This document shows positions 42,384-57,923 of a stretch of 64,000 nucleotides of DNA, piece after piece (position 1 is the first letter of the stretch; each line of letters opens with the position of its first letter). Below the pieces are notes generated by a model that saw only the letters and a program-made list of their open reading frames with translations, was not told the DNA's origin and did no database searches. The stretch covers positions 248,001 through 312,000 of the forward strand of contig JABUFB010000001.1 of assembly GCA_013314775.1 (NCBI GenBank). The letters are read 5' to 3'. Origin of the DNA: Armatimonadota bacterium (lineage in GTDB: Bacteria; Armatimonadota; Zipacnadia; Zipacnadales; JABUFB01). The position numbers and the translations under genes are program-made.

Positions 42384-42412
42384 TTGACGGTGCCTATGGG
42401 CCGTGATACGAT
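42384..42412 (+). promoter_or_regulatory. Sigma70-type promoter for the ABC/FtsX operon
   Basis: TTGACG (five of six -35 bases) and TACGAT (five of six -10 bases) are separated by exactly 17 bases. Transcription would start near 42419, about 55 bases before the FtsX gene, right after the glpK terminator. Confidence 0.75.
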
Positions 42413-42474
42413 ATAAATCTACCCATCATAGGGACCTCCGACGTTGCTTTCTCAACAGTGGAGCCGACTACGCC

Positions 42475-43200
42475 ATGATTGATATCAAGAAGCTGGCGGA
42501 GCTATCGCGGCAGACCGATACGGACATGACCATCGGTCGTCAGATCACTCTGCCCTGGAGCAACGCCTTCAAGATCAGCATGCGGAACGTCACCCTGAGG
42601 CTTGGTCGCGCGGCGATCACGGCCTCCGGTGTCGTTCTCGGTATCGCGTTCCTCATGTCCGTCTGGACCAGCCGGGTCGCTATCGAGGGCATCGAGCGCT
42701 TTGAGCAGCAAAGCGCCCGAGCAGTGTCCGCAGTGGATGAAGAGGGCAACCTCATCGGTCCCGGGGCCGAGGAAGCGCTTGCAGAGAAGAACAGGCGCAA
42801 TGCCCGGCAGAACTGGCTGGTCGTCATGTCGCTCCTCGTCTGCACTGTTGGCATCACCAACTCCATGCTCATGTCCGTTACGGAACGGTTCCGGGAAATC
42901 GGGACCATGAAATGCCTCGGCGCGCTGGACATTTTCATCGTCCGCCTTTTCCTCATCGAAACGGCCTTTCTCGGCTTCCTGGGTTCCGTGGTCGGTGTGA
43001 TTATCGGCCACCTGACCATGCTCGTCGTCTACACCATCAAGGACCATTCCGTTGCGGCGAAAATGGACTGGGGCGAAATGATCGTGTACGTGCTCATCGC
43101 TCTGGCGATAGGCACCTTCCTTTCGTTCCTCGCGGCGATCCCGCCCGCGGTGCGTGCTGCGCGCATGCCCCCGGCCGCCGCGCTCCAGACCGAAATATAG
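42475..43200 (+). CDS. Minimal FtsX-like ABC permease
   Basis: The 241-residue protein has four membrane segments (residues about 42-64, 113-132, 159-185, 203-225) in the FtsX arrangement, with the coupling segment SVTERFREIGTMKCLGALD. The loop after TM1 is only about 48 residues, far shorter than the 200-residue periplasmic domain of MacB or LolC/E, so it cannot contact substrate in the usual way by itself. GGAG precedes ATG 42475. It heads an operon with the ATPase at 43285 and the giant permease at 44443. Confidence 0.88.
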   Translation: MIDIKKLAELSRQTDTDMTIGRQITLPWSNAFKISMRNVTLRLGRAAITASGVVLGIAFLMSVWTSRVAIEGIERFEQQSARAVSAVDEEGNLIGPGAEEALAEKNRRNARQNWLVVMSLLVCTVGITNSMLMSVTERFREIGTMKCLGALDIFIVRLFLIETAFLGFLGSVVGVIIGHLTMLVVYTIKDHSVAAKMDWGEMIVYVLIALAIGTFLSFLAAIPPAVRAARMPPAAALQTEI

Positions 43201-43284
43201 CAAAGGTCGCCCCGCCCACGGGCGAAAGGTGCGGGGCCTTACAGCACGGCCAAGCAGCCGGTGCACACTTGCAGGAGGCCACCC

Positions 43285-44175
43285 ATGGCGCTCATCAAAT
43301 GCCCCAAGTGCGACTACGAGGAAGATACTACCGGGCTGGTCACGGTCTGCCCGAAATGCAAGGCTGACCTGACGCAGGTCATGCACGAAGTGGGCAAGAT
43401 CGAAAAGAAAAGCCGCGGGGGGCTTGTGCGCGACGACTCGGTGACAACCCACGAGTTCATCGTCCGCACCAAGGGGCTGACCAAGGAATACACCATGGGC
43501 GACCAGACCGTGCGCGCCCTGCGAGGTGTGAACCTGGACATCCGGCGCGGCGAGTATCTGTCGATCATGGGCCCCTCGGGGTCCGGCAAATCCACCCTCT
43601 TCAACATGGTGGGGGGACTGGACAAGCCCACCTCCGGCACCTGCTTCATCGAGGAAGTCGACATGGCTCAGCTTGACGCCTTCGAGCTGGCGTGGCTCCG
43701 GTGCCGCAAGATCGGGTACATCTTCCAGAGCTTCAACCTGATCCCCGTCATGACGGCCTTGGAGAACGTCACTCTGCCAATGATCTTCGCGGGCATGAGC
43801 ACCGACGAGATGATGGAGCGCGGCCGCACCCTCCTGGAACTCGTGGGCTTGGGTGAGCGCATCCACCACAAACCCTTCGAGCTTTCCGGTGGCCAGCAGC
43901 AGCGCGTGGCGGTCGCACGCTCCCTTGCAAACAGCCCGGCTATTATTCTCGCCGACGAGCCCACCGGTAACCTCGACCTGCAGACCGGTAAGGAAATCAT
44001 CGACCTCCTCAAAGAGCTGAATGAGGAAAGCGGAGTCACCATCATCTCCGCCACCCACGACCTGAAGATGATCGACGTCTCCGACCGCATTGTGCATATT
44101 CGCGACGGAGATGTGGAGCGCATCGAGCGCCGCGAGGACATTGAACTTGAAGTCGGGACCCTCGGCGGCGAGTAG
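43285..44175 (+). CDS. MacB/LolD-type ABC ATPase with N-terminal zinc ribbon
   Basis: The 296-residue ATPase has all ABC motifs: Walker A GPSGSGKST, Q-loop in GYIFQSFNLIP, signature LSGGQQQR, Walker B IILADEPTGNLD and switch His in SATHDLKM, close to the LolD/MacB/FtsE group. Before this, residues 1-30 contain CPKC (6-9) and CPKC (22-25), a zinc ribbon not normally present in this ATPase family. AGGAGG lies before ATG 43285. It should power the FtsX permeases on both sides. Confidence 0.92.
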   Translation: MALIKCPKCDYEEDTTGLVTVCPKCKADLTQVMHEVGKIEKKSRGGLVRDDSVTTHEFIVRTKGLTKEYTMGDQTVRALRGVNLDIRRGEYLSIMGPSGSGKSTLFNMVGGLDKPTSGTCFIEEVDMAQLDAFELAWLRCRKIGYIFQSFNLIPVMTALENVTLPMIFAGMSTDEMMERGRTLLELVGLGERIHHKPFELSGGQQQRVAVARSLANSPAIILADEPTGNLDLQTGKEIIDLLKELNEESGVTIISATHDLKMIDVSDRIVHIRDGDVERIERREDIELEVGTLGGE

Positions 44176-44442
44176 TGCAACCGATACGTCCGGTCCCTGC
44201 CGGGAAGGCAGGTCCCATTGTGCATCAGTGAGGGCACGGAGCGCGCGGCAGGCACTGTCGCGCGCCGTGTTCGCCTTACGGTCCCACCGATTCGCCCATT
44301 GCCTTCCGCAGCCCTCAACGCTGCGGAATATGGGTGGGCACTCAAAATCAGGAACAAGCAAACCCGGGTCCTCGCCGGTGGCCCGGCGGGCATTGGCGCG
44401 CCGGCAGCGCAGTTGTAGACCCAAGGCGGTGAGTCAGTCTTG

Positions 44443-47400
44443 ATGCAGGTTAGCTCAGGGCGGTTTGTGGGGCTGACGAGTGTTCTGCTGGTGCTTGTCT
44501 TGCTCTTCAGCGCCGGCGTGGCCCTCGCGCAGCGGGCCGAAGACGAAGAGGACATTGTCCTCAAGTCTGAGACCGACTACCAGCGGGTCGTCACTCTCGT
44601 CGACGGCGCCGAGATGAAGCGAGTCGTGGAAGACATGGCCGCGCTCGGCTCCCGTGTCACCGGTTACCCCGGTTGCGAGAAGGCCGTCGATATGGTGGTC
44701 GACAAGTTCAAGGAGCTTGGTCTCAAGGACATCACCATCGAGGAGTTCCCGGTGGTCGTCCCCATGGTCAAGCCTGATGAGAAAGGGCGCGCCGCGTCGA
44801 TCGAGGTCTCCGGCGGCGAAGACCTGGAGATCCTGCCCCTTTGGCCCAACCTGGTTCGCACCCCCAAGACTCCGCCTGAAGGCATCTCCGGCCGGCTCAT
44901 CTACGGCGGCACCGGCAACCTTCGGGCCTTCAACGGCAAAGACATCTCCAACTCCATCGTGCTCCTGGACTTCAACTGCGGCGCCGACTGGTTCAACGCC
45001 CCGCTCCTGGGGGCAAAGGCCGTGCTCTTCATCGAGCCTGAACAGACCCTGCGCGGCGACGCTGAGCAGAAGTTCCTGTCGATCCCCATCAACATCCCCC
45101 GCTTCTGGGTGCCCAAGGCCGCATCGGACTACCTCATGGCCATGCTCCAGTCCCGGGAGCGCGTCGACGTGACCCTCAAGTGCGACATGGAGTGGCAGGA
45201 GGTCACCGGCAAGAACGTCGTCGCCCGTGTGAAAGGCACCGACCCCAGGCTCAGCAAGCAGCAGGTGGTCGTGCAGGCATACTACGATTCCATCTCCGTC
45301 GCTCCCACCGCCGCACCCGGGGCGGAGAATGCCTGCAGCCTTTCCGCCATGTATCAGGTTATCAAGGCGATTCTCGACCAGAAGCCCAAGCGCAGCATCA
45401 CCTTCCTCGCAACGTCTGGCCACTTCCAGGCGCTCAGCGGAAGCAAGTGGTTCGTTCGCGAGCGGATTCGCGGCGGCCGCAGCGAGAAGCGGGTCAGGCA
45501 GATGTTCAACCTGGTCGATACCGCGCGGCGCGAAATCGAGGAAGCCGCGGATCGAGTCTGGGAAGAGGACCGCAGCACTCGCGTTGAGAAGACCGAAGAA
45601 GAGATTACCGACGAGCGCATCCGCGCGCTCAGCCGCATCCGCAAGTCCCTCAAGATCGCTCTGAAAAAGATGCGCGGGCTCGAAAAGACCATCCGCAAGG
45701 CCCGCAAAGAAGACCCGAACCGCGGAAAGCTTGAGGAGAAGAAGCTCACCGAGGAGGAGCTCAAAGAACGCGAACGGCTGATCAATGAGTTTGATCAGGC
45801 GCTGCCCGAAATGAGACAGGCGCTGGAAGCTTGCCTCGATGTGGTGGACAATGGCCGCGCCCAGGGACGCCACGCCGACACGGCCACGAAGCAGGATATC
45901 CTGGCGAAAGTCCAAGAGTCCATCCAGGCCGCCACCGACGCCCTCGACTTCTCTCACGAGGGCATCTCCCTTTGGTTCTCGCTGGACCTGTCCAGTCACA
46001 ATGACGCCTTCGGGATCTTCTACAAGGGCTACTTCTACAACTACGCCGAGAATATCCAGTGGAAGTTCTCGGACATCGGCAAGAAGGCCCGCGAATATAG
46101 CGAACTGATCGGGCAGGCGCTGGGTGTCGATCCGACTACCCGGTTCGCGGACGGGATCAACGCGATCCAGGGCAAGAGCTGGCAGACCTACATGGCCGGC
46201 AAGCTGGCCCTCGCCAATGAAGTCGCCACGATTGGAGGCATTCCCGGCCTCGGATTTGCCACCATCAACGATTCGCGCCCCTACGTGGACACCCCCATGG
46301 ACGTCCCTGAACGGGTGGACATGGACAACGTCGTCACCCAGACACAGTTCCTTGCCTGTCTCATGTGCGACCTGATCAATATCTCCGACCCTCGCAGCAA
46401 GGACCTCTACGACCTGCAGCTTGACGATAACTTCGTCGAGGTCAAGGGCCGGGTTGTTGAGTTCGATCCGGAGACCACCACATTCCCGGATGAGCCTATT
46501 GAGGGCAAGCCCGTGGAAGGCACCCGCGCCGGCAATACGTGCGTCGTGGTTGCCCGCACCGGCGGCAAGACAGCGATGGGGGTGCGTTGCGAGCTCTTCG
46601 ACATCCCGACGAACCTGGAGAGGGACAAGGAACCGGACCGCAAGCGAGACCCCAAAGCGCACCAGGAGTGGAAGGACAAGGGCGGACGCCTGACCTCGCT
46701 CATCGGCCTTCCCAACGTGCGTGCCCGCGGCGGCCAGGTCCCCATTGAGGGCTACGACCTGCACGCCGAGGACGGACGTGTCTGCATGGCCCCCGACCGC
46801 GGCGTCAACGGCAACGAGGCCTACCCCACCGCGCTCACTATGGATCAGGAAGTCAAGCCGGTCACCAGCGTCCTGTTCGCCTGCAAGTCCATGGCGATCT
46901 TCGACATGGTTGACCAGCGGTTCTTCGAGCTGCTGCGCGAGATCAACGTCTACGACGCCACCACGGACGCGGCACCCTACGAGTATGGCTACTGTCTGCC
47001 GCTTCCGCCGGAGCAGTTCACCTCCGCCTACGAGCCCTGCGCGGTTGTATTCGCACCCGGTGGCACCAAGGTGAAGGTCACCATGGGTGCCAGCGTCCTC
47101 GGTCTGCGGTTCGTTCTTGTGAACCCCACCGAAGAGGACCATGAGGGCGAAGGGTATCTCATCGACAAGTACCCCTCCATGTACGCAACGCCGTTCCGAG
47201 TGGCGATGGACATGTGGCAGCTCGACGAGGAGCGCATGACCCGTCTGCGCGAGCACGGCATCGAAAACAGCCGCGTGGATAAAGCTCACGTCACCGCCCG
47301 CACGCACCTTGAGGAAGCCAGGAAGTATCTTGAGCGGCGGCAGTATGACAAGTTCTTCACCGCTGCCCGCTCGGCGTGGAGCTTCGAGTCCCGGGCATAT

Positions 47401-49518
47401 CCCGACGTGCGCCGCACGGCGAACGACGTCATCAAGGGCATCCTTTTCTATCTTGCGCTCCTCTTGCCTTTCGCCTTCTTCAGCGAGCGCCTGTTCATTG
47501 CCGCCCCCGACGTGCGCTGGCAGATCGTGGGATTCTTTGGCATTTTCATGCTGATCTTCTTCCTGATCGCCCTGGTGCACCCGGCCTTCGCCATCACGTT
47601 CACGCCGGCCATTATCCTGTTGGCCTTCATCATCCTGGCCCTGACGATGATCGTTATCTCCATCATCGTCCAGAAGTTCGAGGACCAGATGAAAGAGGTC
47701 CGTTACGAGCAGACAGGTATCCGCACCGCGGACGTGGGCCGTCTTAGCGCGTCCGGCGCGGCATTCAACCTCGGCATCGCGAACCTGCGCCGCCGCAAGG
47801 TCCGCACAATGCTCACCTGTCTGACACTGATCCTCCTCACCTTCACTGTTCTGTCCTGCACGTCCGTCGTCGAGGGCGTGCGCAACAACCGGATTCGCCT
47901 TCCCAAGGAAGCGCCTTACAACGGCATCCTGATCCGCGACAAGACCTGGGCGCCCATCGGCGAACCGACCCAGCGCGTCATGAACAACGAGTTCGGCGAC
48001 CGCTACCCGGTTGCCCCGCGCGCCTGGTACTTCTCGAGTAAAGTCGGAGACCAGTCCTTCGTCACCGTCAGCCGCGGCCTTGATACCTACGCCGCCACGG
48101 CGATGGTGGGTCTGACACCCCAGGAAGCCGAGATCACCGTGGACCCGGCACAGCACCTGAAGAAGGGCGGACGGTGGTTCCGGCCCGACGACACCCTGGT
48201 CTGCATCATTCCCGAAGGCATGGCCGACAAGCTGAATATCTCGCCATCCCAGGTGGGAACGGCCTCTGTATCCGTGTTCGGAACCAGCCTGCGGGTCATC
48301 GGAATTGTGCGCTCCAATAAGTTCAAGAACCACGCCATCGACCTCGACGGCGAATCGATCACGCCGGTTGACTACCTGCTCATGCAGGAGCAGCAGGCAC
48401 AGCAGCAACAGCAGCAGCGCGGAGACAAGATGAGCGAGGACGAACTGCGCGAGTACATCCATCTCGCGCCCGACAGTGTCCTGTTCGTCCCATACGAGTT
48501 CGTGATCAATGCCGGCGGCACCCTGCGTTCCGTGGCGTTGAAGATGGACAAGGCAGATGACGTGCGCAAGCACCTCGACGACCTCATGCAGCGCGTCGAG
48601 CTCAACCTGTATGCGGGAATGGATGGCGAGACCTTCCTGTGCAGTGCGGTCGGTGCTACCAGCTTCAAAGGCGCCTCGGACCTCGCGATCCCGATTCTCA
48701 TCGCCGCTGCCATCGTTCTCAACACTATGCTTGGGTCCGTCTACGAACGCGTCCGTGAGATCTACATCTACAGCTCCCTGGGGCTGGCGCCTACCCACAT
48801 CGCGGCCCTCTTCATCGCGGAGGCCAGCGTGTACGCGATCCTGGGCGCTATCGCCGGGTACCTCGTGGGTCAGGCGATGGCCAAGTTCCTGCTCACCTTC
48901 AACCTGCTCACCGGTCTGAACCTGAACTACTCGTCACTGTCGGCGGTGGCCTCCACGGCCATCATCATGTTCACGGTGCTGCTATCCGTTATCTACCCCG
49001 CGAAACGGGCGTCGCAGATCGCGATGCCCGGCATTGAGCGCCGTTGGACCCTGCCCGAGCCTGAGAACGACCAGATCGCAATGGGCCTGCCTTTCACCGT
49101 CACGGGCGACCAGGCTCTGGGTGTCAACATGTTCTTGCGCGAGTACCTCGCCGCCCACGCCGACTACTCACTGGGGCACTTCTCCACCGCTGACATCGAC
49201 CTTGGCACGATTCAGGCGGAACTCGGCGAGGGCTATCAGTTGAGCGTCATGGTCTGGCTGGCGCCTTACGACCTGGGCGTTTCGGAGCGGCTCTTGCTGC
49301 AGACGGTGCCCACCGAAGACGCCGAGGTTTATCAGATCCGGGCCGTGATCATCCGCGAGAGCGGTGATGAGTCCTCCTGGATCCGTGTGACGCGCAACTT
49401 CATCAACATGCTGCGCAAGCAGTACCTGTTGTGGCGCACCTTCCCCGCGGGTCTCAAGGGCGAGTACGGACAGCGGGGTATGAGGCTCCTGGCCGGCGAA
49501 CTGGAAGAAGAGGAATAG
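44443..49518 (+). CDS. Giant fusion: inactive M28-peptidase-like domain plus FtsX permease
   Basis: The 1691-residue protein starts with an export signal or anchor (residues 9-28). Residues about 45-640 look like an M28 aminopeptidase fold with a PA-like insert and a long charged coiled coil (residues about 355-455). The metal sites are lost: VVQAYYDS for the usual HxD, PGAENACSL for GxDDNASG, SGHFQALSGS for GEExGLxGS, and VDTPMDVPERVD for the final His. From residue about 996 there are three membrane segments, then an FtsX core with TM1 near 1120, a MacB-like periplasmic domain with a poly-Gln stretch near 1315, and TM2-4 near 1414-1520. A soluble tail of about 170 residues ends it. It probably forms a heterodimer with the small permease. 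Confidence 0.85.
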   Translation: MQVSSGRFVGLTSVLLVLVLLFSAGVALAQRAEDEEDIVLKSETDYQRVVTLVDGAEMKRVVEDMAALGSRVTGYPGCEKAVDMVVDKFKELGLKDITIEEFPVVVPMVKPDEKGRAASIEVSGGEDLEILPLWPNLVRTPKTPPEGISGRLIYGGTGNLRAFNGKDISNSIVLLDFNCGADWFNAPLLGAKAVLFIEPEQTLRGDAEQKFLSIPINIPRFWVPKAASDYLMAMLQSRERVDVTLKCDMEWQEVTGKNVVARVKGTDPRLSKQQVVVQAYYDSISVAPTAAPGAENACSLSAMYQVIKAILDQKPKRSITFLATSGHFQALSGSKWFVRERIRGGRSEKRVRQMFNLVDTARREIEEAADRVWEEDRSTRVEKTEEEITDERIRALSRIRKSLKIALKKMRGLEKTIRKARKEDPNRGKLEEKKLTEEELKERERLINEFDQALPEMRQALEACLDVVDNGRAQGRHADTATKQDILAKVQESIQAATDALDFSHEGISLWFSLDLSSHNDAFGIFYKGYFYNYAENIQWKFSDIGKKAREYSELIGQALGVDPTTRFADGINAIQGKSWQTYMAGKLALANEVATIGGIPGLGFATINDSRPYVDTPMDVPERVDMDNVVTQTQFLACLMCDLINISDPRSKDLYDLQLDDNFVEVKGRVVEFDPETTTFPDEPIEGKPVEGTRAGNTCVVVARTGGKTAMGVRCELFDIPTNLERDKEPDRKRDPKAHQEWKDKGGRLTSLIGLPNVRARGGQVPIEGYDLHAEDGRVCMAPDRGVNGNEAYPTALTMDQEVKPVTSVLFACKSMAIFDMVDQRFFELLREINVYDATTDAAPYEYGYCLPLPPEQFTSAYEPCAVVFAPGGTKVKVTMGASVLGLRFVLVNPTEEDHEGEGYLIDKYPSMYATPFRVAMDMWQLDEERMTRLREHGIENSRVDKAHVTARTHLEEARKYLERRQYDKFFTAARSAWSFESRAYPDVRRTANDVIKGILFYLALLLPFAFFSERLFIAAPDVRWQIVGFFGIFMLIFFLIALVHPAFAITFTPAIILLAFIILALTMIVISIIVQKFEDQMKEVRYEQTGIRTADVGRLSASGAAFNLGIANLRRRKVRTMLTCLTLILLTFTVLSCTSVVEGVRNNRIRLPKEAPYNGILIRDKTWAPIGEPTQRVMNNEFGDRYPVAPRAWYFSSKVGDQSFVTVSRGLDTYAATAMVGLTPQEAEITVDPAQHLKKGGRWFRPDDTLVCIIPEGMADKLNISPSQVGTASVSVFGTSLRVIGIVRSNKFKNHAIDLDGESITPVDYLLMQEQQAQQQQQQRGDKMSEDELREYIHLAPDSVLFVPYEFVINAGGTLRSVALKMDKADDVRKHLDDLMQRVELNLYAGMDGETFLCSAVGATSFKGASDLAIPILIAAAIVLNTMLGSVYERVREIYIYSSLGLAPTHIAALFIAEASVYAILGAIAGYLVGQAMAKFLLTFNLLTGLNLNYSSLSAVASTAIIMFTVLLSVIYPAKRASQIAMPGIERRWTLPEPENDQIAMGLPFTVTGDQALGVNMFLREYLAAHADYSLGHFSTADIDLGTIQAELGEGYQLSVMVWLAPYDLGVSERLLLQTVPTEDAEVYQIRAVIIRESGDESSWIRVTRNFINMLRKQYLLWRTFPAGLKGEYGQRGMRLLAGELEEEE

Positions 49519-49677: not shown

Positions 49678-51672
49678 GTGGTACAACACGATCCGGAACT
49701 TGAACTTTATCGAGGGCTGATGGATCAGCCGGAGAAGTTCGAGGAGGGTTTCGACATCAAAGCCGTCGTCGGCGCCCTCTTCGTCGGCTTCGTCATGATG
49801 CCCGGCGCCATCTACCTCGGGCTCGTGGCCGGCCGGTCACTGGGTCCCGCGGCGGAGTGGACCACCGTCATCCTCTTCACAGAGGTTGCCAGGCGGTCCT
49901 TCGTCACCCTCAAGCGCCAGGAGGTCTATATCCTCTTCTACATCGCGTCGGCCCTGGCCAGTACGGGACACGGCGGCCTGCAGCTTGCAGGCGGCGCTTT
50001 CGCGGGAAAGATGTGGGACCAGTACTTCGTCCGATCTCCCGCGGCCAAAGGAATGGGAATTGCCAACGAGATTCCGTCCTGGGTCGTGCCTGGGCCCGAT
50101 TCCGAAGCCATTCTGCAGCGAACGTTTCTCCACCCTGACTGGCTCATACCGAGCCTGCTCCTGCTGCTTGGCACCGTCCTCGGCCGCTTCAACAGCTGGG
50201 GCCTGGGTTACTTCCTGTTCCGCCTGACCTCGGACTATCAGAAGCTGCCCTTCCCCTTCGCGGCCATTTCTGCGCAGGGCTCCACCGCTCTCGCGGAAGC
50301 CTCGAGCAAGGAGGAGACCTGGCGCTGGCGCACCTTCTCCATCGGCGCAATGATCGGACTGGTCTTCGGCGCGTTCTACGTGGGTATCCCTACCTTCACC
50401 GGCGCCATCATGAGCAAGCCGCTGCAGCTTCTGCCGATCCCGTGGGTAGATCTCACCCGAAACACCGAGCAGATACTGCCGGCCATGCCCACAGGCTTTG
50501 TGACCGACCTCGGTTCCATCGGGTCCGGGTTCGTCGTGCCTTTCTGGGCAGTCGTAGGCGGGTTCCTTTCGGCGCTCCTGACCCTTGTCTTCAACCCGTA
50601 CATGCACAAGATCGGTGTCCTCAGCAGCTGGCAGGCAGGTATGGGCACCATTGAGACCCAGTTTGCCAACCGTATCGACTTCTACTTCTCCTTCGGAATC
50701 GGTATCGCGTTCGCCGTCTTTGTAGTCAGCATGTACCTTATCGTCGCCATCTTCCGGGAGAACCTGCGGAAGCAGAGAGAGGAGGGCGGGCAGGGCACCA
50801 AGGGGAGCTGGACGCCACCACCGGGACGGGGCGACATTCCCACGTGGTTGTCACTGACCCTGTTCGCCGTCTCGACCATTGCCTACATCTACCTGTGCTG
50901 GCTCCTGGTGCCACGTTTCCCGCTGTTCTACGTAATCCTGTTCGGGTTCGTGGTCACGCCGATTCAGTCGATCATTGATGCGACGATGATCGGCATGACC
51001 GGCCAGTACGTGGGCGTCCCGATGGTGCGCGAAGCGACCATCATCTTCAGCGGCTATAAGGGCGTCGATATCTGGTTCGCGCCCATTCCATTGTCTGACT
51101 TCGGCGGCATGGCCCAGCATTTCCGGGTCATCGAGCTGACGGGCACGAAGATCACCAGTATGATCAAAGCCGAGCTGGTCATCTGGCCCATCACTATCTT
51201 CTGCAGCCTGCTCTTCTGGCAGTTTGTGTGGCGCCTTGCGCCGATCCCGTCCGTCTACTACCCCTACGCCCAGAAAATGTGGCACCTTTCGGCGCTGGAA
51301 CGCGGCCTGTGGCTCACGTCAACGGTGAACCCCGAGCGCAGCGTTTTCTACCGCGCCTGGAACAAGAATATCGCAATCGGTGGGTTTGTCTTCGGGACCC
51401 TCTTCTACTACATACTGGCGGCCTTCAAACTGCCCACTATGCTGGTCTTCGGCATGGTTCGTGGCTTGGGGACCCTTCCACACTTCGTGTTCCCGGAGAT
51501 GGTCGGGGCGCTGATCAGCCAGTACTACTTCGTGCCGCGCTACGGCGCGCGCCGCTGGAAGCAGTATGCGACGGTTCTCATGGCCGGGTACTCGTGCGGG
51601 ATGGGGCTCGTGGGCATGGGCACGGTGGCCATCGCGATGATCAGTAAGTCCGTCTCCCAGATGCCCTACTAG
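49678..51672 (+). CDS. OPT-like oligopeptide transporter family membrane protein
   Basis: The 664-residue polytopic protein has about 14 hydrophobic segments and the stretch LPFPFAAISAQGSTALAEAS, which resembles the conserved region of OPT-family transporters; Armatimonadota have a branch of such proteins annotated as DUF6785/DUF6784. GTG 49678 has GGAGG seven bases upstream. It follows the M28/FtsX fusion by 159 bases on the same strand, which suggests related function, perhaps peptide uptake. The substrate is unknown. Confidence 0.8.
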   Translation: MVQHDPELELYRGLMDQPEKFEEGFDIKAVVGALFVGFVMMPGAIYLGLVAGRSLGPAAEWTTVILFTEVARRSFVTLKRQEVYILFYIASALASTGHGGLQLAGGAFAGKMWDQYFVRSPAAKGMGIANEIPSWVVPGPDSEAILQRTFLHPDWLIPSLLLLLGTVLGRFNSWGLGYFLFRLTSDYQKLPFPFAAISAQGSTALAEASSKEETWRWRTFSIGAMIGLVFGAFYVGIPTFTGAIMSKPLQLLPIPWVDLTRNTEQILPAMPTGFVTDLGSIGSGFVVPFWAVVGGFLSALLTLVFNPYMHKIGVLSSWQAGMGTIETQFANRIDFYFSFGIGIAFAVFVVSMYLIVAIFRENLRKQREEGGQGTKGSWTPPPGRGDIPTWLSLTLFAVSTIAYIYLCWLLVPRFPLFYVILFGFVVTPIQSIIDATMIGMTGQYVGVPMVREATIIFSGYKGVDIWFAPIPLSDFGGMAQHFRVIELTGTKITSMIKAELVIWPITIFCSLLFWQFVWRLAPIPSVYYPYAQKMWHLSALERGLWLTSTVNPERSVFYRAWNKNIAIGGFVFGTLFYYILAAFKLPTMLVFGMVRGLGTLPHFVFPEMVGALISQYYFVPRYGARRWKQYATVLMAGYSCGMGLVGMGTVAIAMISKSVSQMPY

Positions 51673-51897: not shown

Positions 51898-52611
51898 ATG
51901 TCGGTCAGAGTACACCGCCGCGGTTTCACCCTCATCGAGTTGCTTGTGGTCATCGCCATTATCGCCATTCTGGCCGCTATCCTGTTCCCGGTGTTCGCCA
52001 GGGCCAGAGGTAAGGCTCGACAGGCTGCGTGTGTCTCCAACATGAAGCAGATCGGGCTGGCGATGATCATGTACGCGTCGGACTATGACCAACTGCTGCC
52101 CTACTGGTGCATTGCCGGGTCCAGTGATCACAACCCGAACGACATCACGTGGGACGTCTCGATCATGCCGTACATGAAGAACCAACAGATCCTCATCTGC
52201 CCGGATAACACTTTCAACAGCGGCGGGAACACACATCCGAACCAGGACGGCAAGAAGCGCGGATACGCTCTGCCCCGTTACGTTGCTGCCCAAATGCAGG
52301 ACGCGCCGCCGAACCCAGTCAAGACCCTGGTCCTCGTCGAGAAGGGCGCCTATCTGCCAGCCAGCTACGAGGACGCGGCCAGCGAACACCCGATCCAGGC
52401 CGGCTTCAGCAAGGAGTACCCCAACCAGGTCGCGTGCCGGCATAATGAAGGGAATAACTTCGCGTTCCTTGACGGCCACTCCAAGTGGTACAAGTTCTCG
52501 TCCGGGCCGTGGGTCGAGAACAGTTTCGTAGGATCGGATCCCGGAGGCGGTTACTGGACCGGCGACCGCGCCGGCCGCTGCGAGTTCCCTGAGGACTGGC
52601 CGACCCAGTAA
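51898..52611 (+). CDS. Prepilin-like protein with H-X9-DG C-terminus
   Basis: The 237-residue protein has the class III signal [18 protein letters not shown] followed by [21 protein letters not shown]. The C-terminal motif [12 protein letters not shown] fits H-X9-DG. AGGAGGG lies upstream of ATG 51898. It differs from the next gene in the central region, so the two are paralogues rather than a fresh duplication. Export through a type II/IV pilus-like system is expected; the extracellular function is not known. Confidence 0.9.
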
Positions 52612-52655
52612 CGAACCTGCCGCTCCCAGCGGCTGCCACCCGCTGGCGCTCAACT

Positions 52656-52690
52656 CCGAGCGCGCGGCCCGAGCCCGGGCGCGCGCTCGG
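52656..52690 (+). terminator. Intrinsic terminator between the two prepilin genes
   Basis: CCGAGCGCGCG and CGCGCGCTCGG form a perfect 11-bp stem with a 13-base loop, followed by TTGGTTT. A smaller hairpin (GCCGCT/AGCGGC) lies just upstream at 52618-52632. Confidence 0.75.
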
Positions 52691-52734
52691 TTGGTTTACA
52701 GACTGCGGTGCGGATGTCGGAGGAGTGATGGACG

Positions 52735-53526
52735 ATGGGACGAAAGCAAGGCTTCACCCTCGTAGAGATTCTGGTGGTGATTGCCATTATCGCTGTGCTG
52801 GCTGCCATCCTGTTCCCCGTCTTCTCCCGTGTGCGGGAGAATGCCCGCAAGACCAACTGCCTGTCCAACCTCAACCAGGTCGGTGTGGCGATGCGCGCGT
52901 ACTCGTCGGACTACGGCGGCTACATCGTGAACTGGTGCGTCAGCCACCCGGCCTGTGCTGCCACCCCTGGGTGGCCCGCGCCGCCGGCGGAATCGGTGAA
53001 GAACGATCCGGCTGACGGCGTCGTGACCTGGGACCTGAGCATCATGCGATACCTGAAGAGCGACAAGGTGCTCCTTTGCCCGTCCAACAAGAACCCAAGG
53101 ACCGACGTGGGGCGCGCGGCCCGTGCGTACGCCATCGCGCGCTACACCCAGAAGGTAGTCGCCGGGGGCATCTGGGGCCCCTCTCTGGGTATGATGGAGG
53201 GCGACTTCCCCAAGCCCACAGAGACCGTACTGCTCTTCGAGAAAGGCAACAATCTCCCCGGATCCTGGGGCGATGCGTGTGGCGAGAACGTGTTCGAAAG
53301 CCATAACGGACCGCTCATCGACCAGTATGCCCCCAACGACAACGACGAGCAGACGTCGGGCGGCCAGACTATCAACGTCCGCATGTTCCATGGTGACGGA
53401 AAGAACATCCTCTTCCTCGACGGCCACGCCAAGTACTTCACCAAGACCACCGGGCCTTTCGCGAAAGTCGGCGCATCCTACGCCGTCCCCGGTATGGTCT
53501 TCACACGCGCCGACATCCCCCAATGA
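52735..53526 (+). CDS. Prepilin-like protein with H-X9-DG C-terminus
   Basis: The 263-residue protein starts [18 protein letters not shown] then ILFPVFSRVRENARKTNC, another class III prepilin N-terminus. The C-terminal HGDGKNILFLDG fits H-X9-DG. GGAGGAGTGATGGACG stands before ATG 52735. An intrinsic terminator separates it from the preceding paralogue, so the two may be expressed independently. Confidence 0.9.
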   Translation: MGRKQGFTLVEILVVIAIIAVLAAILFPVFSRVRENARKTNCLSNLNQVGVAMRAYSSDYGGYIVNWCVSHPACAATPGWPAPPAESVKNDPADGVVTWDLSIMRYLKSDKVLLCPSNKNPRTDVGRAARAYAIARYTQKVVAGGIWGPSLGMMEGDFPKPTETVLLFEKGNNLPGSWGDACGENVFESHNGPLIDQYAPNDNDEQTSGGQTINVRMFHGDGKNILFLDGHAKYFTKTTGPFAKVGASYAVPGMVFTRADIPQ

Positions 53527-53714: not shown

Positions 53715-56700
53715 GTGAGCAGTCGCAAGTGCCTGTTGGGCATTGACGTCGGATCGGTCAGCGTGAATCTTGCCGTGCTGGACGGGAACAAGTCAGTCAT
53801 CCAGGAACGGTACGTTCGGCACAAAGGCCGGCCGATGAAGGTCGCCGCCGAAGTGCTGCGCGAGGCGATCTCCGAGCTGGGGATCGAGAACATCGCCGGC
53901 CTCGCCGCTACTGGAGCCGGGGGGAGGGTCATCGCACAGATTCTGGGCGCCACCTTCACTAACGAGGTCGTTGCCCAAGCCACCGCAACCAGTACCCTGC
54001 ACCCAGAGGTCCGCACAGTCGTTGAGATAGGCGGGGAGGACTCCAAGCTCCTGTACCTGCAGCCTTCACAGTCGGGCGACCACATCGACATCGCGGACTT
54101 CGCCATGAACAGCATGTGCGCGGCAGGGACAGGCTCGTTCCTGGATCAGCAGGCCTCGCGCCTGGGGCTGAGCATTGAGGATTTCGGACGCCTGGCGCTG
54201 GAATCCCAGACACCGCCGCGCGTGGCCGGACGCTGCAGCGTGTTCGCAAAGTCTGACATGATCCATCTGCAGCAGAAAGCCACACCCACCAGTGACATCG
54301 TCGCGGGCCTGTGCTATGCCCTTGTCCGGAATTTCAAGAGCACCGTCGGCTCGGCGCGGGCCCTGGAGCCGCCGGTCGCCTTCCAGGGCGGTGTCGCGGC
54401 CAATCCCGGCATCGTTCGCGCCATGCGCGACGTACTGGAACTCACCGAAGACCAACTCGTAATCCCTGAGCATTTCGCGGCCATGGGCGCAATTGGCGCC
54501 GTTCTCAAGGCCGGCGACGACATCGCTCAGCCGGATTTCTCGAGGCTTGACGAACTTGCACAATACGTCTTTCATGCCGGCTCCGACCGCACCCTGCTTC
54601 CGCTGAAGCTCGACAATGCGGTCATTATGCCCGCTGAAGTAACGCGCCCGGAGCCTCGCGACGGCGAGCGCATTCCCGCGTACCTGGGTGTGGATATCGG
54701 CTCCATCAGCACGAATCTGGTGGTCATCGACGCCGACGGCAATGTGCTGTGCAAACGCTATCTGATGACCGCCGGCGCGCCAATTGAGGCGGTCCGTACG
54801 GGCCTTCGCGAAGTGGGGCAGGAAGTCGGCGCCATCGTGGACATCCGGGGCGCCTGCACCACCGGTTCCGGCAGGTACCTGATCGCCGACTTCATCGGTG
54901 CGGACGTGGTGAAGAACGAGATAACCGCCCAGGCAAGGGGCGCTCTGGCCATCGACCCGAAGGTGGACACCATCTTTGAGATCGGCGGCCAGGACTCCAA
55001 GTATATTCGCCTGGAGAACGGCCACGTCGTCGACTTCGAAATGAACAAGGTCTGCGCCGCGGGAACTGGATCCTTCCTGGAGGAGCAGGCGGAAAAACTG
55101 GGCATCAGCATCAAAGAAGAGTTCGGGAATCTTGCTCTGCAGGCGAAAAACCCGGCCAACCTGGGCGAGCGCTGCACCGTGTTCATGGAGACCGAACTGC
55201 AGCGTAACCAGCAGGCCGGCACCCCCACTGAGGACCTCGTCGCCGGGCTCGCGTACTCTGTTGTCTATAACTATCTCAACCGCGTGGTGGCTCGCAAGCC
55301 CGTTGGCGAACGGATCTTCTTCCAGGGGGGCACCGCTTTCAACCGCGCCGTAGTCGCCGCATTCGGCATGGTCACCGGCAAGACGATCACCGTCCCCGCA
55401 CACAATGAAGTCACTGGCGCGCTAGGGTGCGCCCTCATTGCTCGTGAGGAAGACCAGGGCAAGGGCAGCCGATTCAAAGGCTTTGATCTCAGCGAGCGCA
55501 AGTACACCATCCAGTCCTTTGAGTGCCGCGAATGTGCGAACCGCTGCGAAATCAACAAGGTCACCGTTGAGGGCGAAAGGCCGCTCTTCTACGGCAGTCG
55601 GTGCGAGAAGTACGATGTCGACCGCTCGCGGCGCACCGATATCGATCTGCCGGACCTTTTCGCCGAACGCGAGCAGATGCTGCTTACGGCGTACCAGCCT
55701 CGCACGGAGCTTCCGGAAGATGCGCCCAGGGTCGGCATTCCCCGGGCGCTCATGTTCCACGACCTGTTTCCGATGTGGCACGCGATGCTCACGGAACTCG
55801 GCTGCCGAGTGGTCCTCTCCGACCCCACAAACAAGAGCATCATCCATGAAGGCGTGGAGAAATCGGTGGTCGAGACCTGTTTTCCCGTGAAGGTGGCGCT
55901 GGGGCACGTCCTGGACCTGCTGAGCAAGGACATCGAGTACATCTTCCTGCCCAGCGTGATCAACCTGCCCAAGCTGGACAAGAGCATGACCGACTCCTTC
56001 GTCTGCCCCTACGGGCAGAGCTTCCCATACACCGTCAATTCGGCGGTGGACATCGAAGCACACGGCGTGAAGCCTTTGCGCCCCGTATTCTATCTCGAAC
56101 ACGGATCGCGCCAACTTGTGCCGGCTATGACGCCGATCGCGAAGGAACTGGGAAGGAGCGAAGCCGATGCCCGGCGCGCAGTGGATGCCGGAATCGCCGC
56201 TCAGCGCCGGTTCGCCCAATTGCTGCAGGTCCGCGGAAAGCAGGTGCTGGACAACCTGCCCGAAGACCGGCCGTCAATCGTCATCGTCAGTCGCGCGTAC
56301 AACGGGTGCGATCCCGGCGCTAACCTGGAGATCCCCCAGAAGCTGCGGCACATGGGGGTACTGGCGATCCCCCTGGACTTCCTCCCGCTGGACAATGTGG
56401 AATTGCCGGGCGACTGGTTCAACATGTACTGGCGCTACGGCCAGCGAATCCTTGCCGCCGCCGAGGTCATCTCGCAGAACCCGAAACTGCACGCGCTTTA
56501 CTTGACGAACTTCAGCTGCGGGCCCGACTCCTTCATCATGCGGTACTTCCAGGAACGCCTCGGAAGCGAACCCGTGCTGATGATCGAGGTCGATGAGCAC
56601 AGCGCCGACGCGGGGATGATCACCCGTTGCGAGGCCTTCCTTGACAGCCTGGAGTCCACGAAGGGGCAGGTCTTCGAGAAGGGTCGGACCTTCCGGCCTC

Positions 56701-57923
56701 TGAGCATCGCCACCGGGTCGCGGCGCGAGATGCTCATCCCCAACATGAGCAGCCATGCATATGCCGTGGCCGCCGCTTTCCGGGCCTGTGGCATGCCTGC
56801 GCGCGTCATGGATCCGCCGGATGATGAGACCCTTATGTGGGGTCGCAAGTACACATCTGGCAAGGAGTGCTTCCCCTGCATCGTCACCACCGGCGACATG
56901 GTGCGCGAGGTCATGCGCCCGGACTTCGACCGGGACACCGCCGCGTTCTTCATGGGCGGTTCCGGAGGTCCCTGCCGATTCGGTCAGTACAACGCCCTCC
57001 AGCGCATGGTGCTGGATGATCTGGGCTACACCGACGTCCCGCTCTACGCCCCCAACCAGGCAAGCGGCTTCTTTGACGACCTGGGCGTGGTGGGACGCAA
57101 GTTCCTGCGGCTTGCCTGGCGAGGAATGGTGGCAGTAGACTTGCTGGATAAGGCGCTGATGGAGATTCGCCCTTATGAGGTGCGGCCAGGCACAACCGAT
57201 GCCGTCCACCAGGTCTCGCTTGAGGATGTGACCGAGGCTGTCGCCGGCAACGGTGATCTCCTTGCAGCCCTCAAACGTTCACGTGACCGGTTCGCGGCAA
57301 TCGAGATCGACCGCTCGCAGGAACGCCCGATCATCGGGCTCGTGGGCGAGTTCTACATCCGCGCCAACGCCTTCAGCAATGAGGACCTGGTGCGCAAGAT
57401 CGAGGAACTGGGCGGGGAGGTCTGGGCATCGCCGATCTACGAGTGGTTCCTGTACCGAAATTTCCGCCGTGACATGCGTGCGAAGCTTGCCGGAAACCTG
57501 AAGCTGCGGCTCAAGAACTGGCTCATGGACCGGGTGATGGTCTCCGATGAACACCACCTGATCGCTGCTTTCGACGGGCTTCTGCGCAATGCCTATGAGC
57601 CCCCCACACAGGAAGTCCTGGCCATGGCCGAGCCTTACGTGCACCGCAGTTTCGAGGGCGAGGCGATCATGACCGTGGGCAAGGCAGTGGACTTCGCTCG
57701 CAAAGGACTCAGCGGCGTGGTGGCGGTCATGCCCTTCACCTGCATGCCGGGCACGATCTCCGAAGCCCTCATGAAGCGCGTCCGCGAAGATGAGAACGAG
57801 ATCCCCTTCCTCAACATGGTGTACGACGGCTTCGAGCAGTCCACCGCGCGCACTCGCCTTGAGGCTTTCATGTACCAGGCGCGGGAGTACATGAACCGCA
57901 ACCGCGCGGCTGCTGCGCTCTGA
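53715..57923 (+). CDS. Acyl-CoA dehydratase activase-type protein (double BadF domain, DUF2229)
   Basis: The 1402-residue protein has two BadF/BadG-type ASKHA ATPase domains (residues about 5-270 starting GIDVGSVSVN and 325-580 starting LGVDIGSIST). Each has the two Cys of the [4Fe-4S] activator: CAAGTGSF with GRCSVF, and CAAGTGSF with GERCTVF. Then come a Cys-rich linker (CRECANRCEINK), a DUF2229 region (GIPRALMFHDLFPMWHAML) and a dehydratase-subunit-like C-terminal half (GKECFPCIVTTGDM). This long architecture is known in anaerobes as activase-related protein with unproved substrate. GTG 53715 follows AGGGG. Separate HgdA/HgdB subunits are not nearby. Confidence 0.88.
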   Translation: MSSRKCLLGIDVGSVSVNLAVLDGNKSVIQERYVRHKGRPMKVAAEVLREAISELGIENIAGLAATGAGGRVIAQILGATFTNEVVAQATATSTLHPEVRTVVEIGGEDSKLLYLQPSQSGDHIDIADFAMNSMCAAGTGSFLDQQASRLGLSIEDFGRLALESQTPPRVAGRCSVFAKSDMIHLQQKATPTSDIVAGLCYALVRNFKSTVGSARALEPPVAFQGGVAANPGIVRAMRDVLELTEDQLVIPEHFAAMGAIGAVLKAGDDIAQPDFSRLDELAQYVFHAGSDRTLLPLKLDNAVIMPAEVTRPEPRDGERIPAYLGVDIGSISTNLVVIDADGNVLCKRYLMTAGAPIEAVRTGLREVGQEVGAIVDIRGACTTGSGRYLIADFIGADVVKNEITAQARGALAIDPKVDTIFEIGGQDSKYIRLENGHVVDFEMNKVCAAGTGSFLEEQAEKLGISIKEEFGNLALQAKNPANLGERCTVFMETELQRNQQAGTPTEDLVAGLAYSVVYNYLNRVVARKPVGERIFFQGGTAFNRAVVAAFGMVTGKTITVPAHNEVTGALGCALIAREEDQGKGSRFKGFDLSERKYTIQSFECRECANRCEINKVTVEGERPLFYGSRCEKYDVDRSRRTDIDLPDLFAEREQMLLTAYQPRTELPEDAPRVGIPRALMFHDLFPMWHAMLTELGCRVVLSDPTNKSIIHEGVEKSVVETCFPVKVALGHVLDLLSKDIEYIFLPSVINLPKLDKSMTDSFVCPYGQSFPYTVNSAVDIEAHGVKPLRPVFYLEHGSRQLVPAMTPIAKELGRSEADARRAVDAGIAAQRRFAQLLQVRGKQVLDNLPEDRPSIVIVSRAYNGCDPGANLEIPQKLRHMGVLAIPLDFLPLDNVELPGDWFNMYWRYGQRILAAAEVISQNPKLHALYLTNFSCGPDSFIMRYFQERLGSEPVLMIEVDEHSADAGMITRCEAFLDSLESTKGQVFEKGRTFRPLSIATGSRREMLIPNMSSHAYAVAAAFRACGMPARVMDPPDDETLMWGRKYTSGKECFPCIVTTGDMVREVMRPDFDRDTAAFFMGGSGGPCRFGQYNALQRMVLDDLGYTDVPLYAPNQASGFFDDLGVVGRKFLRLAWRGMVAVDLLDKALMEIRPYEVRPGTTDAVHQVSLEDVTEAVAGNGDLLAALKRSRDRFAAIEIDRSQERPIIGLVGEFYIRANAFSNEDLVRKIEELGGEVWASPIYEWFLYRNFRRDMRAKLAGNLKLRLKNWLMDRVMVSDEHHLIAAFDGLLRNAYEPPTQEVLAMAEPYVHRSFEGEAIMTVGKAVDFARKGLSGVVAVMPFTCMPGTISEALMKRVREDENEIPFLNMVYDGFEQSTARTRLEAFMYQAREYMNRNRAAAAL

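Follow-up and report, generated by a model that had tools for sequence, protein, structure and literature searches.

In the 64,000-nucleotide stretch of an Armatimonadota genome analyzed here (the window), a single gene encodes a chain in which a signal peptide, a PA-containing ectodomain of ~960 residues with the fold of M28 peptidases, three transmembrane (TM) helices, an FtsX unit, and a helix-grip-like C-terminal domain follow one another. The catalytic site of the ectodomain appears to have been remodeled into a different, highly conserved pocket, and the module around this fusion probably works in the cell envelope as a capture-and-delivery machine not described before. The parts of the fusion are as follows, with residues numbered from the TTG at 44440 as residue 1:

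44443–49518, + strand: M28-like/FtsX fusion permease, 1691 amino acids counted from the ATG
44473–44529, + strand: signal peptide core, then ALA-Q (residues 12–30; hydropathy and direct reading)
44557–45477, + strand: N-terminal portion of the M28 fold (residues 40–346), including a PA-type insert and containing Y281, D283, P289, APGAE 292–296, H328, and F329
45487–45942, + strand: helical, coiled-coil-like insert splitting the M28 fold (residues 350–501)
45961–46404, + strand: C-terminal portion of the M28 fold (residues 508–655), containing D516, E594, D611, R613, V616, D617, and D621
46423–47394, + strand: rest of the ectodomain, beta-rich, then helical (residues 662–985; from the model, barely covered by the fold search)
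47428–47715, + strand: three extra TM helices and the following helical segment (residues 997–1092)
47752–49023, + strand: FtsX/MacB-type unit (residues 1105–1528), with TM1, a MacB-like periplasmic core (about 1143–1409), and TM2–TM4
49066–49461, + strand: C-terminal domain (residues 1543–1674) with a borderline helix-grip (Bet v 1-like) likeness (Z 8.5)

The reading frame is unbroken from the TTG at 44440 or the ATG at 44443 to the stop at 49518, and a plausible ribosome-binding site lies 5′ of the start. Pfam recognizes Peptidase_M28 (PF04389; E 5e-10, 40.0 bits against a cut-off of 21.3), MacB_PCD (30.1 bits against 27), and FtsX (PF02687; 50.9 bits against 25.5) in the same chain. Full-length homologs, 54–97% identical, occur in the order and class, with remoter ones in the phylum and beyond, and their presence in many genomes and phyla rules out an assembly artefact or a chance open reading frame. 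The original prediction of a degenerate M28-like domain joined to an FtsX permease on one chain is thus confirmed. The insert at residues 350–501 is short or missing in many of these homologs.

Within an even sample of the phylum, a strong match to the fusion was found in 153 of 201 Armatimonadota genomes, and in 100 of 140 when only those of best quality were counted. A second paralog, about 40% identical, is encoded elsewhere in the genome of the window. Scanning species genomes with two motif patterns retrieved 561 relatives, the best 80 of which come from records labeled Armatimonadetes/Zipacnadia/WS1, Latescibacterota, Gemmatimonadetes, Desantisbacteria, FCPU426, Poribacteria, and Chthonomonas calidirosea, these names being the record labels of bins, which can be wrong.

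The ectodomain (residues 33–1010) was modeled by AlphaFold with 54 homologs (pLDDT 92.1, pTM 0.91), and the top structural matches of the model were M28 aminopeptidases: AAP (1amp), with a Z of 29.0 and an rmsd of 2.7 Å over 270 residues, and Bacillus subtilis YwaD, with a Z of 28.8. The transferrin receptor and glutaminyl cyclases were further matches. The same assignment came from the family profile, which matched 2ek8 (E 6e-23) and YwaD (3e-20) and, more distantly, nicalin (1e-9) and transferrin receptor 1 (5e-8). The PA domain was recognized in 10 of the 54 fusion homologs. An M28 fold, predicted at first from the letters of the sequence, is therefore what the model contains, in line with the PF04389 score above its cut-off. 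Fold and frame motifs are shared with M28 aminopeptidases that have or lack a PA domain (2ek8, YwaD, AAP). Transferrin receptor 1 and nicalin are non-catalytic M28 relatives in which this architecture is used for binding or assembly; unlike the fusion, they are eukaryotic and stand outside any ABC permease.

The ligand sites were mapped against 2ek8, YwaD, and AAP. The metal-binding His corresponds to Y281, the general-base Glu to H328, the ligand Glu to F329, and the second metal His to D617, with V616 aligning with the residue just before that His. The bridging Asp corresponds to the variable position 297 (N/S/Q) or, if the one-residue gap in the profiles is real, to the conserved E296. The ligand Asp is retained as D516. 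The Tyr, Asn, His/Phe, and Val/Asp originally read at these sites are correct by this mapping, but that reading had missed both the retention of D516 and the possibility that E296 replaces the bridging Asp. Unlike the M28 aminopeptidases, the fusion therefore keeps one ligand Asp only (the bridging Asp being perhaps a Glu), has a His for the general base, and carries an ABC permease.

An intact M28 metal site was found in none of 108 homologs, divergent lineages included. Both Glu residues of the catalytic center and the second His are replaced in all 108, whereas three sequences keep the first His. Single reversions are rare, namely these three with His at 281 and two with Asp at 297, and no sequence combines them. 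The alignment thus bears out the proposed loss of ligands. The fusion family lacks the set formed by the five co-catalytic metal ligands and the general-base Glu of peptidase family M28 and, as far as sequence can tell, is not M28 in the enzymatic sense.

What replaces the site is a signature of its own (YYDSxSVxPxLAPGAE / GHF / LDLSS / DxRxxVDTPxD). Among 88 non-redundant sequences, D283, P289, P293, and G294 are invariant, H328, D516, E594, D611, and R613 are each kept in 86, D617 in 83, and E296 in 80; position 329 varies between F, H, and C. The mean entropy of six pocket positions was 0.33 bit, compared to a core median of 1.94 (p about 1e-5 against random sets of six), and 20 further divergent members agree in substance with this pattern. 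Two very divergent relatives (L063 and L064, about 28% identity) have lost the new signature as well. In the same genome, genuine M28 proteins have intact HxD/EE motifs, for example GAHYDSVSVAPGADDNGS and DCEEVGL; this control rests on L185, L186, and L189, no matching open reading frame being found at L187 and L188. Since the replacement residues are highly conserved while genuine M28 proteins keep their motifs, the pocket is best read as a remodeled site under selection. Decay of a dead enzyme is ruled out, as few parts of the domain are as conserved as the replaced pocket. The conservation supports strong purifying selection on the pocket, which would fit a binding domain. The first description of the ectodomain as probably a binding domain accordingly holds for the M28 fold deprived of catalytic ligands and for the conserved pocket, but an acidic cluster plus a His persists there, a point that counts against it.

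This cluster also leaves room for a retooled enzyme, in which the conserved D283, E296, H328, D516, D617, and R613 would catalyze a new reaction, whether or not a single metal takes part. These residues hardly vary among the 88 divergent sequences, the ligand Asp is kept, and the title of PDB entry 2anp describes a Glu-to-His replacement of the general base as functional. However, no member has the ligand Glu and almost none the metal His, and position 329 varies in a way not expected of a catalytic residue, so that we consider a new catalytic activity improbable.

The membrane part is a complete FtsX unit, as had been proposed: PF02687 and MacB_PCD both score above their cut-offs, and the model of this unit matches HrtB, MacB, YtrF, LolC, FtsX, and YbbP (Z 11–16, Foldseek E down to 4e-12). 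The extra helices of the original prediction are three TM helices at about 1000–1020, 1028–1046, and 1058–1076, ahead of FtsX TM1, which brings the total to seven; they would take the chain from the periplasm to the cytoplasm before TM1. With PF02687 above its cut-off and a four-helix unit that has its periplasmic core between TM1 and TM2, the fusion has the features of type VII ABC permeases. The ATPase encoded at 43261–44175 would be its cognate ATPase, judging from gene order.

The fusion is flanked by the following genes:

42403–43200, + strand: minimal FtsX permease of 265 amino acids (PF02687 65.7 bits, alignment), with hardly any periplasmic segment from TM1 to TM2
43261–44175, + strand: LolD/MacB-type ABC ATPase (PF00005 112 bits, alignment; best NCBIfam model LolD, 233.6 bits, below its cut-off of 307.75)
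49678–51672, + strand: OPT-like polytopic membrane protein of 664 amino acids, the conserved downstream partner

In the lineage of the window, the ATPase carries at its N terminus a zinc-ribbon-like extension (CxxC...CxxC) that is missing from remoter homologs.

We examined the neighborhoods of 79 loci with enough flanking sequence, a set biased to the best-scoring relatives and non-independent through shared descent. The OPT-like gene lies directly downstream of the fusion in 61 of the 79 (median gap 65 bp), a DUF6785/DUF6784 protein adjoins the fusion in 24, and one or the other does so in 73. The presence of the genes in genomes gives the same picture: the OPT-like protein was found in 57 of 61 relatives, all 57 with the fusion or its paralog, and three of the four relatives without it are also the three sampled genomes that lack the fusion. 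In the OPT-paired lineages, the ATPase and the minimal permease are encoded near the fusion and in the same direction, upstream in the lineage of the window and downstream in others, where a gene of a family we call u340 and a PqqD-like gene are inserted. PqqD-like genes are present in many modules; PqqD-like proteins are a peptide-binding family. Examples of the u340 (300–360 amino acids, WxGIxxxVPxDW) and PqqD-like pair inside the module are L110:13304-14708, L141:12678-14059, and L126:616-1851, and u340 itself had no convincing Pfam match.

The OPT-like partner resembles the OPT family (PF03169) and DUF6785/DUF6784. The protein of the window has no match to PF03169, falling below its detection; four of 39 relatives match (best E 5e-7), and the link to DUF6785 is one partial profile match (hhalign probability 88, E 3e-6). 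Pairing with DUF6785 only is confined to one derived paralog clade of the tree, as though one OPT-type partner had taken the place of another, and neither the ATPase nor the small permease was found near the loci of this clade. A divergent variant (L063:2-12001) keeps the order DUF6785, fusion, OPT-like protein, small permease, and ATPase. The genome of the window has 30 matches to DUF6785 (PF20581), an OPT-like family, against none in 14 control genomes.

Compared to known type VII ABC systems (MacB, LolCDE, FtsEX, HrtBA, and BceAB), the fusion system likewise has an FtsX C-terminal domain, a MacB-like TM1-TM2 core, and a LolD/MacB-type ATPase. It differs in the PA/pseudo-M28 ectodomain, the three extra TM helices, and the C-terminal domain added to one chain, in a partner permease that lacks a periplasmic domain, and in its OPT-like neighbor. 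A canonical Lol or MacB system is ruled out by equivalog scores below the cut-offs: the fusion reaches 12.4 bits against 362.45 for LolC/E and 17.4 against 966 for MacB (PRK10535), the ATPase stays below the LolD cut-off given above, and, unlike in MacB, the ATPase is a separate gene. YbbAP-TesA is likewise a type VII ABC system with extra TM helices and a hydrolase-fold periplasmic partner; however, it has a ten-helix permease and TesA is a separate, active esterase, whereas the hydrolase-fold domain of the seven-helix fusion is part of the same chain and lacks the catalytic ligands (PMC12646458).

These likenesses raise the alternative of envelope extraction in the manner of LolCDE or YbbAP-TesA, in which the FtsX unit would pull lipoproteins or lipids out of the inner membrane and the pseudo-M28 ectodomain would receive or chaperone them. 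The ATPase is closest to LolD, the permease fold resembles LolC, MacB, and YbbP, and YbbAP-TesA sets the precedent of a type VII ABC system with a hydrolase-fold partner (PMC12646458). What makes a Lol-like role a serious rival is that the genome of the window has neither a match to LolA (PF03548) nor a LolC/E above the curated cut-off, each searched with one model. However, the fusion and the ATPase score under the LolCE and LolD cut-offs, a Lol role would leave the OPT-like partner unaccounted for, and the fusion is missing from some Armatimonadota genomes that are nearly complete, which would not be expected of an essential lipoprotein exporter. Extraction is thus an unlikely account, though one to be taken seriously.

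A sensor or regulator was also considered, in which a ligand of the ectodomain would be signaled via the permease, or the ABC cycle would regulate cell-wall enzymes, as in BceAB or FtsEX. Type VII systems often operate without transport (PMC12646458). In the genome of the window, u340 (C1:378340) comes after a gene reading as RodA/FtsW, so that a cell-wall role is possible for a family that sits inside the module elsewhere. However, a true FtsX is separately present in this genome, and no kinase or hydrolase gene was found among the constant neighbors, which makes a sensory or regulatory role the least probable of the readings weighed here.

Our tentative preference goes to a type VII (mechanotransmission) ABC system whose pseudo-M28 ectodomain would bind a periplasmic ligand and which would work with the OPT-like partner. 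In type VII systems, ATP-driven motion does periplasmic work, usually without a substrate crossing the membrane, and the partner proteins define the function (PMC12646458). The LolD-like ATPase would drive an unequal pair of FtsX-type permeases in the inner membrane, one minimal and one giant. The periplasmic PA and pseudo-M28 domain of the giant subunit would carry a metalloenzyme site turned into a conserved ligand pocket, and the ATP-driven motion would open, close, or present this ectodomain. The same motion would hand the ligand to the adjoining OPT-superfamily-like protein or gate that protein, which would be the carrier in the membrane or the target. A peptide or peptide-like compound is the most plausible ligand because of the M28 ancestry, the OPT resemblance, and the PqqD-like neighbors. 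Complex formation, binding, and the direction of any transport are likewise what we infer from these data.

The original prediction had the ectodomain hand peptides to, or gate, the transporter. This needs refinement, as the permease is not alone but accompanied by the ATPase, the minimal permease, and the OPT-like protein; since type VII ABC systems usually move no substrate through the membrane, the OPT-like protein is a more plausible recipient than the FtsX unit. The M28 fold, the ligand loss with near-invariant replacements, the motifs kept by M28 proteins of the same genome, the MacB/LolC/HrtB/YbbP-like permease, the linkage and co-occurrence of the module, the single derived clade of the DUF6785-only pairing, and the PqqD-like genes all speak for the mechanotransmission reading. 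Against it stand the missing PF03169 match of the OPT-like protein in the window, the single partial profile match between the OPT-like family and DUF6785, the DUF6785-only loci without ATPase or small permease, the acidic cluster plus His in the pocket, and the possible cell-wall role that u340 brings in.

The steady pairing with the OPT-like protein suggests a kind of transporter coupling that we do not know from elsewhere. The components come from known families, but no description of their combination, conservation, and partner turned up in the open-access literature searched, in which neither an M28/FtsX fusion nor the DUF6785 pairing appeared. More speculatively, the whole could be a hybrid uptake (or release) module in which a type VII ABC system has a pseudo-peptidase as its receptor and feeds or gates a secondary carrier of the OPT type. 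Such a module, bringing together a primary energy input, a receptor, and a secondary transporter, might, with the same reserve, have been kept in much of the Armatimonadota and in several further candidate phyla. Non-catalytic M28 proteins, known from eukaryotes, would with the fusion have a prokaryotic example as well, and DUF6785 and the OPT-like family would be placed in a functional setting. It is open to experiment because it occurs in lineages with cultured members, for example in a metagenome-assembled genome named Chthonomonas calidirosea (L148).

After the module, the window encodes two prepilin-like proteins in a row (51898–53526), both with N-terminal methylation motifs, and similar genes follow the module in several relatives. 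Beyond them, at 53715–57923, lies the gene for a 1402-amino-acid CoA-enzyme-activase-like protein with two BadF/BcrA-type ATPase stretches and a DUF2229.
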